Assembly (NCBI GenBank): GCA_947452995.1
Contig: CANGEV010000006.1
Location: 1-64,000 of the forward strand
DNA length: 64,000 bases
Source of the DNA: Chitinophagales bacterium
GTDB taxonomy: Bacteria > Bacteroidota > Bacteroidia > Chitinophagales > CAIODY01
Direction: 5' to 3'
Each line of letters begins with the position of its first letter. Within the stretch, counting starts at the first letter, position 1. Below, piece after piece: positions 6,919 to 14,996 of this stretch. The position numbers and the translations under genes are program-made. The notes beneath the pieces were generated by a model. It saw nothing but the letters and a program-made list of their open reading frames with translations. It searched no databases and was not told the origin of the DNA.

Positions 6919-9096
6919 ATGAAAAGATATATACTAGCTCTTGGGCTATTAAGCGCTGTTGTAGTTAAGGCGCAAACAACTACAGACACTGTTCAAGTAA
7001 AAGAAATCATCACTTCCGCAACTAAGTTTGCGACTCCGAAAGAGCGTCTTGCACAACAAATTCAAGTGATTGATCAAAAGGAAATGCAAGCCAATAATGC
7101 AATGAATACTGCAGACGTAATGGCCAATACCGGATATGTCGTTGTGCAAAAAAGTCAAGGCGGCGGCGGAAGTCCTATTATTCGTGGCTTTGAAGCAAAT
7201 AAGGTTTTGATTATGGTCGACGGAGTTCGTTTGAACAACGCCATTTTCCGTGGTGGCCACTTGCAAAACGTGCTTCGTGTTGACAATGCTATGTTAGATC
7301 GCGTAGAAGTCCTTTATGGACCTTCTTCTACGCAATATGGCAGCGATGCCTTGGGTGGTGTGATGTCGTTCTATACCAAGAAAGCGGTATTGAATAATAA
7401 GAGTGCCAATGCGATGGTACGTATGGCTACTGCAACTGGCGAACAAGCAGTTCATCTGGATGTCAATACCGGCTTTAAAAAGCTTGCTTTCTTGACAAGC
7501 GTGAGCTATGGCAATTACGGTGATATTCGCATGGGTAGCGACTATCGTTCGATGTTTCCTGGTTTTGGTCAACGTGAATACTATGTAGTGCGTAATGGCA
7601 ATTCAGATAGTATGGTTAAAAACAGCAATCCTCTTGTTCAAGTTGGTTCTGCTTACAAGCAATATGATGTAATGGAAAAAATCATGTTCGCTCAGAACGA
7701 TTATTTAACGCATACATTAAACGTACAGTATTCTAATACGGGTAATGTAAATCGTTATGATCGTTTGACTGAATATAGTGGTGCTAATTTGAAGTATGCG
7801 CAATGGTACTACGGACCAGAAGAACGTTTGTTGGCAAGCTATCGCATGGATTATACGCGTTCAAATAAATTGTTTGATAAAATGAGTTTCATTTTAGCAC
7901 ATCAAGCGATTAACGAGAGCCGTAATAGTCGTAAGTTCAATAAAACATTATTGAAACATCAGAATGAAGCGGTTGCAGTGAATTCCTTTGATATCGATGC
8001 GATGAAGACGATTCATCAGCACGAGATGCATTATGGTGTAGAAGGGTATTTCAATACGGTAAATTCTACAGCGACGTTTGAAAATGTCCTTACAGGGGAA
8101 TCTACAATAGCAGACACGCGCTATCCTAACGGAGGAAGCACGATGAACAATTTAGCTGCTTATGTACAAGATCAAATTACGATTGAAGAAAATAAGTGGT
8201 ATGGAAATGTGGGTGCGCGTTTGACGTCGAATACCTTAACCGCTAAATTCACAGACACTACTTTCTTTAAGTTTCCGTTTAAAGATGTTACACAAAAGAA
8301 TACGGCTTTGTCTGGAACTGCTAGCTTAGTATATCTTCCTTCAAAAGGCAATCGTATTGCCTTGTTGGGTTCTACAGGATTCCGTTCTCCGAATGTAGAT
8401 GATATGACGAAAGTATTCGAAACAGCCCCCGGTTATTTAATTGCGCCGAATCCGACACTACGTCCTGAGTATACGTATAATGCGGAGTTGAGTGCTTCGC
8501 ATATGATTGGAACAGATGGTATGATTGAAGGTGGAGTTTATTACACGTTTATGGATCACGCTTTAGTGGTAGATCGCGGCACCTTAGATGGAAAGGATTC
8601 TGTCATGTATGAAGGTGCGATGACGGCGGTATATACGACGCAAAACAAAGGTCAGGCGATGATTTCAGGTATCTACGCTGCTGCTAAGTTTAACGTTGGT
8701 AAATATGTTGTATTGAGTGGTAATTTTAATAAGTCGCGTGGCCGTATTTTGTCGAGTGGTGTAGAAACGCCATTAGATCATATTGCGCCGATGAGTGCTA
8801 AGTTTGCTGTTGACTATCGTAAAGATAAGTGGAACGCAGGTGTATGGATGTTGATGAATGGCCGTAAGCCTTTGTCGGAGTATTTGTTAAATGCTGAAGA
8901 CAACGAGATGTATGCAACGCCGATGGGAACACCAGCATGGCAGTGTTTGAATGCGCGTTTAGGCTATAATTTCACGAATAAAGTAAGCCTACAATTAGCT
9001 TGTGATAATATCATGGACATGAACTACCGTGTGTTCGCGAGTGGTATCAGTGCTCCGGGACGTAATTTCAAATTGACTTTACGCGCGAGCTTGTAA
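6919..9096 (+). CDS. TonB-dependent outer-membrane receptor
   Basis: A 725-residue receptor driving TonB-powered import across the outer membrane. The signal peptide is residues 1-18. The plug domain (about 28-150) contains the family signatures SPIIRGFEANKVLIMVDGVR and DRVEVLYGPSSTQYGSDALGG. The barrel follows, with the conserved FRSPN and NPTLRPEYTYNAE motifs near residues 490-515, and ends at a beta-strand (FKLTLRASL). It has no CarboxypepD-like N-terminal extension and no SusD partner, so it belongs to the iron, haem, cobalamin or metal-type receptors and not to glycan SusC proteins. The FRxPN/NPxLxPE pair is common in haem-type receptors, but the ligand cannot be fixed from sequence alone. 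It is probably co-expressed with the preceding His-rich protein. Confidence 0.87.
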   Translation: MKRYILALGLLSAVVVKAQTTTDTVQVKEIITSATKFATPKERLAQQIQVIDQKEMQANNAMNTADVMANTGYVVVQKSQGGGGSPIIRGFEANKVLIMVDGVRLNNAIFRGGHLQNVLRVDNAMLDRVEVLYGPSSTQYGSDALGGVMSFYTKKAVLNNKSANAMVRMATATGEQAVHLDVNTGFKKLAFLTSVSYGNYGDIRMGSDYRSMFPGFGQREYYVVRNGNSDSMVKNSNPLVQVGSAYKQYDVMEKIMFAQNDYLTHTLNVQYSNTGNVNRYDRLTEYSGANLKYAQWYYGPEERLLASYRMDYTRSNKLFDKMSFILAHQAINESRNSRKFNKTLLKHQNEAVAVNSFDIDAMKTIHQHEMHYGVEGYFNTVNSTATFENVLTGESTIADTRYPNGGSTMNNLAAYVQDQITIEENKWYGNVGARLTSNTLTAKFTDTTFFKFPFKDVTQKNTALSGTASLVYLPSKGNRIALLGSTGFRSPNVDDMTKVFETAPGYLIAPNPTLRPEYTYNAELSASHMIGTDGMIEGGVYYTFMDHALVVDRGTLDGKDSVMYEGAMTAVYTTQNKGQAMISGIYAAAKFNVGKYVVLSGNFNKSRGRILSSGVETPLDHIAPMSAKFAVDYRKDKWNAGVWMLMNGRKPLSEYLLNAEDNEMYATPMGTPAWQCLNARLGYNFTNKVSLQLACDNIMDMNYRVFASGISAPGRNFKLTLRASL

Positions 9097-9212: not shown

Positions 9213-9278
9213 ATGGCAGAAAACTTTTTGGATAATAAAATTGCAAGTTTTCGCGTTCTTACAAGATGCACGAATTAA
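9213..9278 (+). other. 21-codon ORF ending inside a palindrome, possible gene remnant
   Basis: Starts ATGGCAGAAAAC and encodes MAENFLDNKIASF and a few more residues before TAA within the 9259-9294 palindrome. The opening resembles the start of a longer cytoplasmic protein, so this may be a truncated gene start or chance. There is no promoter evidence. Confidence 0.2.
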
Positions 9279-9294
9279 TTCGTGCATCTTGTAA
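9259..9294. repeat. Perfect 36-bp palindrome
   Basis: Each arm is TTACAAGATGCACGAATT, and the two arms meet with no spacer. A further GCG/CGC pairing is possible outside after a small bulge. No T-run follows on either strand, so it does not look like an intrinsic terminator. It lies between the receptor terminator and tRNA-Pro in a gene-free stretch (9097-9467) that holds nothing else certain. Confidence 0.85.
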
Positions 9295-9592: not shown

Positions 9593-11025
9593 CTTACGCA
9601 GACATTTTTTGCTTCAGTGAAAAATTCTAGGGCGTGCATTCCGCCTTCGCGCCCTACCCCACTTTGTTTCATGCCTCCGAATGGCGTTCTGAGATCGCGA
9701 ATTAGCCAACAGTTTACCCACAAAATTCCGCTTTCGACCTTATTCGCCACGCGATGTGCCCTGCTAATGTCTTGCGTCCACAAGCTACCTGCTAGTCCGT
9801 ATTCTGTTGCATTGGCGTAGTTAATTGCCTCTTCTTCGGTATCAAAAGGCTGAATCGTTACCACCGGACCGAAGATTTCTTCTTGGTTGGTTCTGCAGTT
9901 TTGATCTAATCCTTCTATAACAGTTGGTGCTATAAACCAACCTTCTTCACAGCGCCCTTCCAACTTGATAGCATTACCGCCCGTAAGCACAGTTCCTCCT
10001 TCTTGCTTGGCTAGCTCGATGCAGCTCAAAATTTTCTCAAAATGTTGCTTCGAAACGATAGCACCCATACGCACCGTATCATCGTGCGGATCGCCCACTT
10101 TAAGCGCTTTTACTTTCTCTGCAAATTCCGTTTTAAATTTTTCATAGACGCTACGATGTACGAGAATTCGGCTACCGCAAAGGCAAATCTGACCTTGGTT
10201 TTCGAAAGAGCTACGTAAAGTAGTTTTCATCATCTTGTCCCAATCGCAATCCGCAAAAATGATATTCGCGTTCTTGCCACCTAATTCGAGGGATAGCTTC
10301 TTAAATAAAGGAGCTGCTTTCGACGCGATATACGCCCCTGTTTTAGTGCCTCCGGTGAAGGAGATTGCTTTAATGTCGCGGTGGTTGATCATGGCATCGC
10401 CCGCTTTTGGTCCGGTACCATGTACGATATTGAAAACGCCAGGAGGGAATCCTGCTTCGATACATAACTGTGATAAGAGAAAAGCCGACATCGGTGTCAC
10501 CTCACTCGGCTTAGCTACTACGCAACAGCCTGCTGCAAGCGCCGGCGCCACTTTCCATGAGAAAAGATAGAGCGGTAAGTTCCACGGAGAAATACAAGTA
10601 ACTACACCAATAGGTTGATGGGTAGTATAATTGATGAAATGCCCATCCATATGATGTGCTTCGTCATGCCATTGTAAAACGGCATTACTGAAGAAGCGGA
10701 AATTTTCGGCAGCGCGAGGGATATCTACGCGCTTTGCAAGCCATAATGGTTTGCCGTTATCCCGACTTTCTGCGGCTGCGAGGGTGTCTAGATTCTTTAG
10801 AATAAGGTCAGAGAGCTTACGTAGAAGGTCGCTGCGTTCGGCGCGTGAAAGGGCTGCCCAAGCAGGGAAGGCCTCTTTAGCAGCTGTTACCGCCATTTGC
10901 ACATCATCGCTATCGCTATCCGGAATTTGTGAATACACTTTGCCGGTAGCGGGTTCTGGATTGTCGAGCCAATTATTATTTAACGGAGCCTGTAAGGCGC
11001 CGTTGATATAGTTGAGGATTTGCAT
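9586..11025 (-). CDS. Aldehyde dehydrogenase, 2-aminomuconic semialdehyde dehydrogenase-like
   Basis: A 479-residue NAD(P)+-dependent aldehyde dehydrogenase. The fold's active residues are visible: N149 (SPWNLP), E248 (LELGGKN) and the nucleophile C281 (NQGQICLCGSR). The cofactor-binding FTGGTKTG is at about 223-230. The sequences NQGQICLCGSRI and WVNCWLIRDLRTPFGGMKQSG are typical of the ALDH8 / 2-aminomuconate or 2-hydroxymuconate semialdehyde dehydrogenase branch, which oxidises semialdehydes in tryptophan (kynurenine) or catechol meta-cleavage. No other gene of these pathways is present in the window, so the exact substrate is inferred. The TATCTTTG box lies 4 bases before the ATG, pointing to a leaderless message. 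Confidence 0.88.
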   Translation of the reverse strand: MQILNYINGALQAPLNNNWLDNPEPATGKVYSQIPDSDSDDVQMAVTAAKEAFPAWAALSRAERSDLLRKLSDLILKNLDTLAAAESRDNGKPLWLAKRVDIPRAAENFRFFSNAVLQWHDEAHHMDGHFINYTTHQPIGVVTCISPWNLPLYLFSWKVAPALAAGCCVVAKPSEVTPMSAFLLSQLCIEAGFPPGVFNIVHGTGPKAGDAMINHRDIKAISFTGGTKTGAYIASKAAPLFKKLSLELGGKNANIIFADCDWDKMMKTTLRSSFENQGQICLCGSRILVHRSVYEKFKTEFAEKVKALKVGDPHDDTVRMGAIVSKQHFEKILSCIELAKQEGGTVLTGGNAIKLEGRCEEGWFIAPTVIEGLDQNCRTNQEEIFGPVVTIQPFDTEEEAINYANATEYGLAGSLWTQDISRAHRVANKVESGILWVNCWLIRDLRTPFGGMKQSGVGREGGMHALEFFTEAKNVCVSL

Positions 11026-11029
11026 GTTA

Positions 11030-11037
11030 CAAAGATA
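11030..11037 (-). promoter_or_regulatory. -7 box of the aldehyde dehydrogenase gene
   Basis: TATCTTTG on the minus strand, 4 bases upstream of the ATG. Confidence 0.6.
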
Positions 11038-11081
11038 AGTTTCACGGTGTAAAATATTTGGATAAAGTAAGAGAGGGGCGT

Positions 11082-11651
11082 TTTCTTGATTACTGCTGCA
11101 TCTCCCTAGTATTAGCTACTGTGTATAACGTTTTAGAGTCAGAGAAAACCCTTTTAGGCATTATACAGGTACAACACGTAAAGAAGAATTAAGAATTGCA
11201 ATCTACTGGAGGTACGTGTAAGAATATTTATTTCATCAATAAAGGATTAGCGCGTATTTATTATTTCCATGGAGGAACGGATGTCACAGATTCTTTCTCT
11301 TATGAAAATGGATGCCTACTTCGCGTTGAAAGTTTGATCACAGGCAAGCCAAGTAAGAAGGCGATTGAAATGATTGAAGACTCGGAAGTGATTTGCATTC
11401 CTTCGGCAGCTTTAAATCAATTAAACGCAAAGTATCCTGATTTGGATAATGTCTTTCGTAGAGTATTTCAAAACTGCTATGTCGACTTGGTGAATCGAAT
11501 TGAAAGTATTCAATTCCATACAGCAGATGAACGTTATGCAGCACTATTGAATGAAAGACCTGATTTATTAAAACGTGCTCCGTTAAAATTCATCGCTTCT
11601 TATTTAGGCATCACCCAAACTAGCTTAAGCAGAATTCGTCACAAGCGTTAA
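11082..11651 (+). pseudogene. Crp/Fnr-family regulator with an internal stop
   Basis: From TTG 11196 the frame encodes 151 residues with a partial cyclic-nucleotide-binding fold (NIYFINKGLARIYYFHGGTD ... YENGCLLRVESLITG). A short C-terminal HTH (FIASYLGITQTSLSRIRHKR) is typical of the compact Bacteroidota Crp/Fnr regulators. About 40 N-terminal residues are missing. The same frame upstream continues the homology (NVLESEKTLL, then VQHVKKN) but is broken by TAA at 11190-11192, directly before ELQSTGGTCKN. No ATG is found further up. I read this as a nonsense-mutated gene. Restart at TTG 11196 could still yield a shortened protein, but it would lack the first strands of the sensor domain. Confidence 0.7.
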
Positions 11652-11783
11652 TTACTTAGCAAATGTAATTGGAACCTTCCCTTACGATTAATTTCCCCCC
11701 AAAGCACGCTCGTAAATTCGTTCGGGCATTTTTTGTTTTAGGAATAACAACCCAAATTGGTTTATCACAAATCTAATTTGTTG

Positions 11784-11805
11784 TTAATTGACCCATGTCA
11801 ATTAA
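11784..11805. promoter_or_regulatory. Operator-like dyad upstream of the XRE gene
   Basis: Perfect 9-bp arms TTAATTGAC and GTCAATTAA separated by CCAT. It lies 59 bases before the XRE start. The right half-site GTCAATTAA recurs after the same gene at 12310-12318. Probable autoregulatory binding site. Confidence 0.6.
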
Positions 11806-11864
11806 TTGCGCATAATTAAGTATATTGTAATTAGCAAAATGCTAAAGATTGAATCAATTAGTCT

Positions 11865-12263
11865 ATGATGAATGAAAAAATGCTCATTAGCGAGATAATA
11901 AGAAAATACCGGCTTCAAAGAGGCTTTAGTCAAGAATTTGTTGCAAAGAAATTAAATTTAACACAACAAGCATATGCTGTTATTGAAAAAAATCCTGAAA
12001 AAGCTTCCTATGCGCGATTAAAAGAAATAAGTGAAATTTTAGATGTTGACTTTGGAGTATTATTAGGGATAATAGAAAGTCCATTTATGAGTCAATCCAC
12101 TACATTTATACCAGAGCTAGGAAAAAATAATGTTTTAGTGAATACTCAGTTGGTATTAAATATTGATAAGTATAGTAATGTTGAAGAACTGGATCAGTTA
12201 GTCACAATTGTAAAGCAGTTGATAAATAAAAATCAATCCAACAGCGAATTTATACAATCCTAA
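11865..12263 (+). CDS. XRE-family regulator with C-terminal extension
   Basis: A 132-residue DNA-binding protein. The N-terminal HTH_3 domain (about 6-62) contains IIRKYRLQRGFSQEFVAKKL and LNLTQQAYAVIEKNPEKASY. A linker with a mixed-charge tail (about 95-132, VEELDQLVTIVKQLIN) is likely helical and could mediate dimerisation. The recognition helix reads TQQAYAVIEKNP, less canonical than usual because the common S-x-I-E reads A-V-I-E. The gene is AT-rich compared with neighbouring housekeeping genes and sits in an island between a decayed regulator and radA, so it may have been acquired. Related dyads lie upstream (11784-11805) and downstream (12302-12318). Confidence 0.8.
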   Translation: MMNEKMLISEIIRKYRLQRGFSQEFVAKKLNLTQQAYAVIEKNPEKASYARLKEISEILDVDFGVLLGIIESPFMSQSTTFIPELGKNNVLVNTQLVLNIDKYSNVEELDQLVTIVKQLINKNQSNSEFIQS

Positions 12264-12569
12264 CCCTTTGTAAAAAACTACTTATTGTTGTTTTATACAA
12301 ATGACAAGTGTCAATTAAGCGAGATCTTTGCTTTGCATTATTAAGGTGGTCAAAACTTAAAAAGCAAACAAACATTGACGCTCTTGTGGTTTGGGATTTG
12401 TTTAAAGGTGATTCATAAATACTTTTCAATCTTTCGGGGGCGTCAATATTTTAAAGACGTGCAATGTATTTCGTTATTGGTATAATTGTTTATTTGATTT
12501 ATAAAATTATCATAATCTTACTAAAACTATAGAAACAACCACACATTCTATGGTTTTCGGTTAACCTCA
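12264..12569. other. Gene-free stretch with inverted GTCAAT motifs
   Basis: No convincing gene. It contains TGAC-AAGT-GTCAATTAA (12302-12318), a degenerate copy of the dyad upstream of the XRE gene. It also holds a wide inverted pair, ATTGACGC (12374-12381) and GCGTCAAT (12440-12447), with 58 bases between the arms. The latter could fold as the stem of a small RNA or mark a remnant element; neither can be proved here. Confidence 0.45.
12302..12318. promoter_or_regulatory. Second copy of the GTCAATTAA dyad
   Basis: TGAC, spacer AAGT, GTCAATTAA: the right arm is identical to the upstream dyad while the left arm keeps only TGAC. It follows the XRE gene by about 40 bases. Confidence 0.4.
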
Positions 12570-12602
12570 AAGTCCTCTTAAATCCTTAAGAGGGCTTTTT
12601 TG
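12570..12602 (+). terminator. Terminator before radA (plus-strand direction)
   Basis: AGTCCTCTTAA and TTAAGAGGGCT form the stem with a short ATCC loop, followed by six T in the plus direction. It insulates the convergent radA gene from plus-strand transcription. Confidence 0.8.
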
Positions 12603-12604
12603 TT

Positions 12605-13972
12605 TTAGAACAGTAAACGATAAACGGATTCAAGTTTGCTTACAGGGATAACTTCAAGGTTGAATCTGCTAAGATCAAGTCCTTTGCTATTATAGGTAGA
12701 GATTACGATTTTCTCGAAGCCTAATTTGTCTGCTTCGGCTATACGTTGATCAATGCGGTTTACAGCCCGAACTTCGCCACTTAATCCGACCTCTCCTACA
12801 AAACACATATTGCTAGGCAAGGGCTTATCTTCAAAGCTGCTGAGCAAGGCACAAGCAACGGCTAAGTCGAGGGCAGGATCTTCGATACGTAATCCGCCTG
12901 CGAGGTTCACAAAAACATCTTTGTTACCGAAGCTGAATCCACCGCGCTTTTCCAAGACTGCCAATAACATGTTCAAGCGCTTTGCATCAAAGCCTGTTGC
13001 CGTACGTTGTGGGGTGCTATAATGACTAGGGCTTACGAGGGCTTGTGTTTCAATGAGCATCGTGCGCATTCCTTCCATCGTGGCAGCAATAGAAATACCA
13101 CTTAAAGGCTCTTCGCGTTGTGTGATTAAAATTTCTGAAGGATTACTTACCTGACGGAGACCGTTTTGTAGCATCTCATAAATGCCCAATTCTGCTGTGG
13201 AGCCAAAACGATTTTTTAGTGTTCTTAAAATGCGATAGGTATAATGTTGATCACCTTCGAATTGTAATACGGTATCCACCATATGTTCGAGTACCTTAGG
13301 ACCCGCAATGGTGCCGTCTTTGGTGATATGACCGATTAAGAATACGGGCACATTGTTTTCTTTCGCATAGCGCTGCCATTCGCCCGTGCATTCACGAATT
13401 TGCGAAACGGAGCCGGGGGTAGATTCAATTAATTCAGAATATAATGTTTGAATGGAATCGATGATGACGATATCAGGAGAGAGTTCGTTTAGGGCCGCGA
13501 AGATGCGTTGCGTGCAGGTTTCGGTCATCACCAATACATCATGATTGGTATGAATTCTATCCGCGCGTAATTTGATTTGCTGTTCGCTTTCTTCGCCGCT
13601 GACATAGACTACAGTGCGACTATTGAGTTGAAGCGCGAGTTGAAGAAAGAGGGTTGATTTACCAATACCAGGTTCACCGGCCACTAATACCAAACTACCG
13701 GGCACAATGCCACCGCCTAATACTCTGTTGAGTTCTGCATCAGGTGTTTGTAAGCGCGATTGTTCACCGGCCTCTACTTCTTTTAAAGGCTTTAAGGACG
13801 GCGTCGCAGCTTTGCTTTGTTTGCCGCTTTTATAATTGAATGGCTTGTCTTCTCGTTCGAGAATTTCTTCGACAACGGTATTCCACTCTCCGCAACCATT
13901 ACACTTACCTACCCACTTCGGATGTGTCGTTCCACAACTCTGACATACAAATGTCGATTTCGTTTTTGCCAT
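12605..13972 (-). CDS. radA: DNA repair protein RadA
   Basis: A RecA-like ATPase that promotes branch migration in recombinational repair. The 455 residues hold three parts: a C4 zinc finger (C10, C13, C24, C27); an ATPase core with Walker A GEPGIGKST (99-107), the DSIQT-type Walker B region (near 172) and the RadA-specific KNRFG motif (253-257); and a Lon-protease-like C-terminal domain (about 290-455). Length and all signatures are typical. The start codon lies one base after the gldB stop, so the two genes are probably co-transcribed from upstream of gldB. Confidence 0.96.
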   Translation of the reverse strand: MAKTKSTFVCQSCGTTHPKWVGKCNGCGEWNTVVEEILEREDKPFNYKSGKQSKAATPSLKPLKEVEAGEQSRLQTPDAELNRVLGGGIVPGSLVLVAGEPGIGKSTLFLQLALQLNSRTVVYVSGEESEQQIKLRADRIHTNHDVLVMTETCTQRIFAALNELSPDIVIIDSIQTLYSELIESTPGSVSQIRECTGEWQRYAKENNVPVFLIGHITKDGTIAGPKVLEHMVDTVLQFEGDQHYTYRILRTLKNRFGSTAELGIYEMLQNGLRQVSNPSEILITQREEPLSGISIAATMEGMRTMLIETQALVSPSHYSTPQRTATGFDAKRLNMLLAVLEKRGGFSFGNKDVFVNLAGGLRIEDPALDLAVACALLSSFEDKPLPSNMCFVGEVGLSGEVRAVNRIDQRIAEADKLGFEKIVISTYNSKGLDLSRFNLEVIPVSKLESVYRLLF

Positions 13973-13973
13973 T

Positions 13974-14996
13974 TTACTGTTTACTTGGTTTATACTTTGA
14001 TCCTTCTAAAATAACGCGCCCATCGGTCATTCGGAACAAATCTTCCAGACTTGTCTTCGGATTCAACTCCATATATTTTTTCACGATCTGCCATCCCACC
14101 CAAACGCCTAACATGCCTGGCGCTTCGGAAGGCATACCCGGTGTTACAGGAGATATATTCATGAAATCGCTGATGACTTGACGATCTGTTTTATAGAGTA
14201 ATTCGTATTTAATCATATACTCCCAAATGCGGTATTCATAGGTTTTACACCATTTGAGTTGATAAGCAGTATAATCCATTTTTATACTATCGGCTGCATC
14301 AGGAAGTACACGATCGAGGTAGTAAAGTATTTTTCCTTCTGCCACCATTTTATCAATTAAGCGATGATGAAACTCATCCTCCGGTACAAAATTCTTCGCA
14401 TAGGCTTTCATAGCAGTAGGTACAATTTTATTCGGCACACAATTTCGTTTGATGAAGTAAGGGATACCGAAATAGTCATAGACAGGGAATTTCGGACCTA
14501 AGAACAAATCTAAACCGATACCTAATACTTCTGGACCATCTGTAAAACAACCAACGCTAAACTCGCTAAAAAAAGTATAGACGGTAGGGGTTTTTGTTTT
14601 TGGAAAATAGTAGTGGTGCATTTGCATAGCCTCTGTCAAAGCAGGCATATAGTCTTGTTCGAAATGCGGGAAATGATTGTTGAGTGTATCGCGCATCGCT
14701 TGCAAATCTTTTTTCTGTAGCACCGCTGTTAGAAACTGAAAGAGGGTTGCACTGTCTTTATTTACCTCATCTGGTAAAATATGTGTGCAATAGAAATTGA
14801 AAAAATTGGGATATTTTTTTTGAACTAGTTGTGGTTGCGAAGCGTGGTTGAATAACTCTTGATCGAAGCGAACTAATTTCAAATCAATCTTCGTTTTTAA
14901 AGCTTCCTTCTTCACTTTTTGATCGGGTGATTGACAAGACAGTACACTTATGAGCGTTAACAAGACCAATCCTAGTGCGAAACGCAGTTTCAACAT
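13974..14996 (-). CDS. gldB: GldB-like gliding-motility lipoprotein
   Basis: A 340-residue lipoprotein. The N-terminal hydrophobic stretch ends in the lipobox V-L-S-C with lipidated C21. The rest matches the GldB family by LVRFDQELF near the start, SEFSVGCFTDGPEVLGIGLDLFLG in the middle and GMLGVWVGWQIVKKYM near the end. GldB is required for gliding in Flavobacterium and is widespread in Bacteroidota, including non-gliders, and its exact biochemical role is unknown. Its gene directly precedes radA with a one-base gap. Homologues are often annotated this way on family similarity alone, so motility itself should not be inferred. Confidence 0.82.
   Translation of the reverse strand: MLKLRFALGLVLLTLISVLSCQSPDQKVKKEALKTKIDLKLVRFDQELFNHASQPQLVQKKYPNFFNFYCTHILPDEVNKDSATLFQFLTAVLQKKDLQAMRDTLNNHFPHFEQDYMPALTEAMQMHHYYFPKTKTPTVYTFFSEFSVGCFTDGPEVLGIGLDLFLGPKFPVYDYFGIPYFIKRNCVPNKIVPTAMKAYAKNFVPEDEFHHRLIDKMVAEGKILYYLDRVLPDAADSIKMDYTAYQLKWCKTYEYRIWEYMIKYELLYKTDRQVISDFMNISPVTPGMPSEAPGMLGVWVGWQIVKKYMELNPKTSLEDLFRMTDGRVILEGSKYKPSKQ

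Follow-up and report, generated by a model that had tools for sequence, protein, structure and literature searches.

The operator of the phage 434 repressor has the form ACAA...TTGT with a spacer of 6. Small XRE regulators that act on themselves and a single neighbour, such as RstR, HipB antitoxins and the controller proteins of restriction-modification systems, carry an HTH_3 domain and have dyads in their own and in a neighbouring promoter, and type I toxin mRNAs such as those of Ibs and TisB combine a hydrophobic ORF of ~20 residues with a terminator in a structured RNA. For HcpR of delta-proteobacteria the FNR-like motif wyTTGACnnnnGTCAArw was predicted (PMC1274295), and the -7 element of Bacteroidetes promoters reads TAnnTTTG (PMC9723704).

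Here we analysed a 64-kb stretch (hereafter the window) of a Bacteroidota genome (G000, 2.54 Mb) with the gene order aldehyde dehydrogenase gene – XRE gene – radA. Our main reading, to which we assign a probability of about 60%, is that a 434-like XRE repressor controls itself and an undescribed RNA that includes a mini-ORF. The small repressor (11865-12263) would bind ACAA-N7-TTGT as a dimer, much like the 434 repressor. A site at 11767-11781 upstream of its own gene would mediate autoregulation, and a site with one mismatch at 12297-12311, just upstream of a -7 box, would place an RNA of ~265 nt with a 22-codon hydrophobic ORF under the same control. Upon loss or inactivation of the repressor, both units would be transcribed. 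The sequence itself shows a recurrent motif, its constant distance to a -7-like box, an RNA structure with compensatory changes and conservation in G002; binding and repression we infer.

The XRE regulator and its chromosomal setting

The XRE-family regulator of 132 aa is encoded on the plus strand at 11865-12263. Pfam detected only a helix-turn-helix (HTH) domain, HTH_3, with E=8e-12 and 45.4 bits against a curated cut-off of 23; NCBIfam scores were far under the family cut-offs. In the alignment its recognition helix, TQQAYAVIEKNPE, starts with TQQ, matching the TQQ of the 434 repressor. This helix and the ACAA/TTGT half-sites at its own promoter suggest a 434-type regulator that shares with the phage protein the HTH fold and, probably, autoregulation. 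Unlike its phage counterpart, the regulator is chromosomal and does not lie in a prophage, and its half-sites are separated by 7 instead of 6 bases. Neither a 14-bp operator with a 6-bp spacer nor a phage-repressor C-terminal domain was found, the peptidase/oligomerisation domain of the 434 repressor being undetected in the XRE protein. The best PDB matches were C.Esp1396I-type controller proteins, SinR and HipB. Such small XRE regulators resemble the protein studied here in domain and dyad arrangement, but the neighbour in this locus is a predicted structured RNA with a mini-ORF and no restriction enzyme or kinase toxin.

The nearest relative carrying the locus, G002 (Chitinophagales bacterium isolate MAG22, JAPJNH010000014.1), shares the synteny, with the XRE gene located between the aldehyde dehydrogenase gene and radA as in the window. 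G001, G003 and G005 have different sequence after radA. RadA is 99% identical between the window and G002, whereas the XRE proteins (11865-12263 in the window; L009/L090) are 45% identical, a difference that points to a rapidly evolving regulator or to an exchange of its alleles. A wider scan for XRE homologues, with one genome per species in 84,980 species, added two further close homologues, L091 and L092. The first-pass annotation had considered a mobile-derived island; this is not supported, as the locus has chromosomal flanks whose synteny extends to G002, and plasmids and phages yielded no relative with the search sensitivity applied. We set a mobile or phage origin aside on these grounds. 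Four distant XRE relatives occur in viral contigs. Elsewhere in the source genome, a paralogous XRE gene with a SQQAYSNLEKNPDN helix (L010, G000:C17:7545-7877) immediately precedes a phospholipase-D-like/DEAD-box helicase gene; this may be a defence locus.

Candidate operators and promoter boxes

ACAA-N7-TTGT occurs a single time in the window, as ACAAATCTAATTTGT at 11767-11781 (O1, predicted XRE operator); the first ATG of the XRE gene follows at a distance of 98 bp. The 3.4-kb locus of G002 likewise has it once, 92 bp before the XRE start, and it precedes the XRE genes of L091 and L092 at -45 and -46, respectively. The motif is present upstream of all four of the closest XRE homologues, which have the recognition helix TQQAY, with a spacer of 7 in every case, compared to 2 of ~101 other XRE genes (L039 and L103; Fisher p=3e-6). 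The chance of an occurrence is ~1% per 250-bp upstream region. Since the motif was first noticed in two of the four loci, strictly independent support comes only from L091 and L092, with a chance of ~1% each. It is missing from the loci of the other QQAY proteins (L010, L093, L035, L036 and L043). The proposed pairing of the TQQAY helix with ACAA-N7-TTGT is testable in four loci. ACAAAT-N3-ATTTGT was discarded as a genome-wide regulon marker because it is too common in G000 (24 matches vs 16 in the control).

A second predicted operator, O2, lies at 12297-12311 (ACAAATGACAAGTGT) and is aligned with ACAAATGTGTAGTGT in G002. Its one mismatch to ACAA-N7-TTGT is at the end, where the final bases are GTGT instead of TTGT. 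The putative -7 box of the RNA unit follows on the plus strand at 12323-12330 (GATCTTTG), matching 5 of the 6 fixed positions of TAnnTTTG; in G002 the corresponding offset holds GATATTTG. In 4 of 6 sites the distance between the operator start and a -7-like box is exactly 26 bases, namely at both downstream sites (window and G002) and at the XRE promoters of L091 and L092. None of 4000 shuffles reached this count, and 4 of 4000 did so when the related downstream site of G002 was left out. At offset 34, the XRE promoters of G002 and L092 have a perfect TATTTTTG. The model is weakest at the window's own XRE promoter, where a good -7 box is lacking at both offsets, 26 and 34; the perfect palindrome discussed below (dyad 1) covers part of the stretch where this box would fall.

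A predicted structured RNA between the XRE gene and radA

That the regulator has no evident partner gene, as noted in the first-pass annotation, is probably wrong: the stretch from the XRE gene to radA holds a predicted RNA/mini-ORF unit with an operator copy at its putative promoter. The predicted unit of 265 nt consists of a long hairpin, the 22-codon ORF, a second hairpin and a terminator. The strand downstream of the putative promoter folds well (z -5.0), and on the minus strand no convincing promoter was found within 12290-12605. Hairpin 1 (74 nt, plus strand, 12374-12447) folds alike in G002 (fold z -4.6 in one species and -5.1 in the other). Its closing stem is formed by the TTGAC/GTCAA pair at 12374/12440, which had been counted as a third pair of palindrome arms; the pair is real, but it is no dyad copy. 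Hairpin 2 (plus strand, 12526-12554) has the invariant loop ACAACCACACA, and the intrinsic terminator (plus strand, 12569-12598) consists of a 13-pair stem followed by a T run. RNAalifold applied to the two sequences identified six pairs that are changed on both sides yet kept, two each in hairpin 1, hairpin 2 and the terminator.

A block of 31 bases in hairpin 1, TTGGGATTTGTTTAAAGGTGATTCATAAATA (12393-12423), is identical in G002. As 25% of the radA third codon positions (112/456) differ between the window and G002, 31 identical bases are unlikely to be neutral. In frame, the block reads WDLFKGDS*, and part of it, AAAGGTGAT, is similar to an extended Shine-Dalgarno word. WDLFKGDS* was rejected as a peptide, since a start codon is lacking in G002 and all bases are identical, and the block was taken to reflect RNA constraint.

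The mini-ORF (plus strand, 12464-12532, ATG to TAG) comprises 22 codons for a hydrophobic sequence, MYFVIGIIVYLIYKIIIILLKL, which in G002 reads MYVIIGVIIYILYKLIKTILGG without any indel. Over the first 16 codons, 7 first, 0 second and 7 third positions differ from G002, as expected of a hydrophobic peptide. A short hydrophobic ORF within a structured mRNA, conserved together with its hairpins in two genomes only, recalls type I toxin mRNAs. Unlike in these, an antisense RNA was not identified here, and the proposed control is transcriptional, by the neighbouring XRE protein. That the RNA is transcribed, that the ORF is translated and that the peptide has any effect is inferred, and our most specific guess is that the RNA or the peptide acts in the manner of type I toxins or stress peptides. 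The corresponding full version of the model, a chromosomal two-part module in which an XRE repressor acts through an N7 variant of the 434-type operator to silence a structured RNA for a 22-residue, toxin- or stress-peptide-like membrane peptide, and whose repressor alleles diverge fast between fixed neighbours, appears rather unlikely as a whole. The locus points to a structured RNA that is undescribed and may encode a membrane peptide.

The Rfam 15 covariance models gave zero matches up to E=1 in 11000-14000, and no convincing relative of the RNA unit was found among ~400 genomes of the order. Ten regions in the order with short blastn matches to the RNA core were inspected and look like chance. 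A covariance-model search of 398 genomes gave matches in four other genomes, but with E values of 0.003-0.1 per genome these are at chance level, and exact searches for the RNA core in viral contigs found nothing. The unit is known from two genomes only, the window's and G002, and because two sequences underlie them, the RNA structure and the ORF are provisional.

The palindromes flanking the XRE gene

Half-sites of the form TTAATTGAC-N4-GTCAATTAA on both sides of the XRE gene had been proposed to form its regulatory sites. The perfect dyad (dyad 1, TTAATTGAC-CCAT-GTCAATTAA) is present upstream of the gene at 11784-11805 with zero mismatches, and so is the partial copy with the identical right arm (dyad 2, ACAAATGAC-AAGT-GTCAATTAA, 12297-12318), whose 3 mismatches are confined to the left arm. 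Shuffled windows contained a mean of 0.13 such dyad matches, and two were reached in 1 of 100. A dyad with 9-bp arms is expected by chance in ~1.8% of sequences with the length and composition of the upstream region, and TGAC-N4-GTCA, which in the 64 kb is found at the two dyad sites only, has a chance of ~0.2% for the downstream region. Both dyads are thus somewhat unlikely by chance, though the dyad itself may have arisen in this way. We consider it quite unlikely that chance dyads in AT-rich intergenic DNA, and downstream a mere terminator with an untranslated remnant between convergent genes and no regulated RNA, account for the whole locus. The low GC content of the region (30%), where a 9-bp-arm dyad has a ~2% chance, the position of the terminator between convergent genes and the restriction of the unit to two genomes are in line with this explanation, but O2 and its -7 box are spaced as in independent loci, and hairpins 1 and 2, with their compensatory changes, lie outside the terminator.

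Genome-wide, the full dyad has one perfect match and one with 2 mismatches (C12:62371). Allowing up to 3 mismatches yielded 7 matches vs 5 for the reversed control, and the inner 18 bp with at most 1 mismatch gave 5 vs 1. The enrichment is therefore only weak. Other near-matches in the genome are mostly within genes. The second near-perfect copy (G000:C12:62371-62392, L002) is intergenic between divergent genes; to one side lies a small hypothetical protein, and to the other a TonB-receptor-like gene together with a putative lipoprotein.

The first-pass annotation had itself named missing conservation of the dyad with the XRE gene as an outcome that would refute its proposal, and this is what was found: the dyad is absent at both places in the syntenic G002 locus and from the two next-closest loci, L091 and L092, and AATTGAC-N4-GTCAATT with at most 1 mismatch has zero matches in the G002 genome. 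The recognition helix of the G002 XRE protein is nearly identical to that of the window, yet the dyad is missing there. The GTCAATTAA dyad was therefore rejected as the conserved XRE operator. The XRE protein might still recognise the two dyads that flank its gene, which would then be its main operators or a further class of site specific to this lineage. The location of the perfect dyad near the promoter and of the partial copy after the gene, their being the sole TGAC-N4-GTCA sites in 64 kb and the distance of about two helical turns between dyad 1 and O1 would fit such binding. We nevertheless judge it unlikely in view of the absence from G002, L091 and L092 and of the poor left arm of dyad 2, where the conserved sequence is ACAAATG...AGTGTC and not GTCAATTAA. 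O1 ends three bases before dyad 1, and O2 and dyad 2 start at the same base (12297), with the downstream operator copy kept in G002. The palindromes are real, but the target of the nearby repressor is probably the neighbouring ACAA-N7-TTGT, which corrects the DNA word that the protein is likely to read. The notion of an autoregulated XRE module is supported with this change, the recurrent operator being located beside or overlapping the dyads.

Dyad 1 contains TTGAC-N4-GTCAA, as do the HcpR/FNR-type sites mentioned above, and a remnant of a Crp/Fnr-family gene (11100-11651) adjoins it. The remnant has an in-frame TAA at 11190-11192, and homologues (188 aa and more) have ~37 N-terminal residues that its open part (11196-11651) is without. 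Of the remnant, just the last ~119 bp have a match in G002, which lacks the dyad, too. With a published FNR-like motif and a broken Crp gene next to it, the idea that a Crp/Fnr-family regulator binds dyad 1, perhaps as a site left over from this gene, is worth keeping, and the joint lack of dyad and gene in G002 agrees with it. It is improbable, however, since the local gene carries the in-frame stop, the 29 other closest Crp homologue loci have no such dyad upstream, and the other near-matches in the genome are mostly inside genes. Unlike at HcpR/FNR-type sites, there is no hcp gene here, and the dyad does not recur at regulator or target promoters of relatives among the closest Crp homologue loci. 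Matches near these homologues are mostly in coding sequence and were rejected as Crp-associated dyads. A site for some other Crp/Fnr regulator is possible, as the closest Crp homologue loci alone were covered. The window contains one further palindrome, a perfect 36-bp dyad with 16-bp arms (TTACAAGATGCACGAA-TTAA-TTCGTGCATCTTGTAA) at 9259-9294, just past a TonB-receptor-like ORF that ends at 9096.
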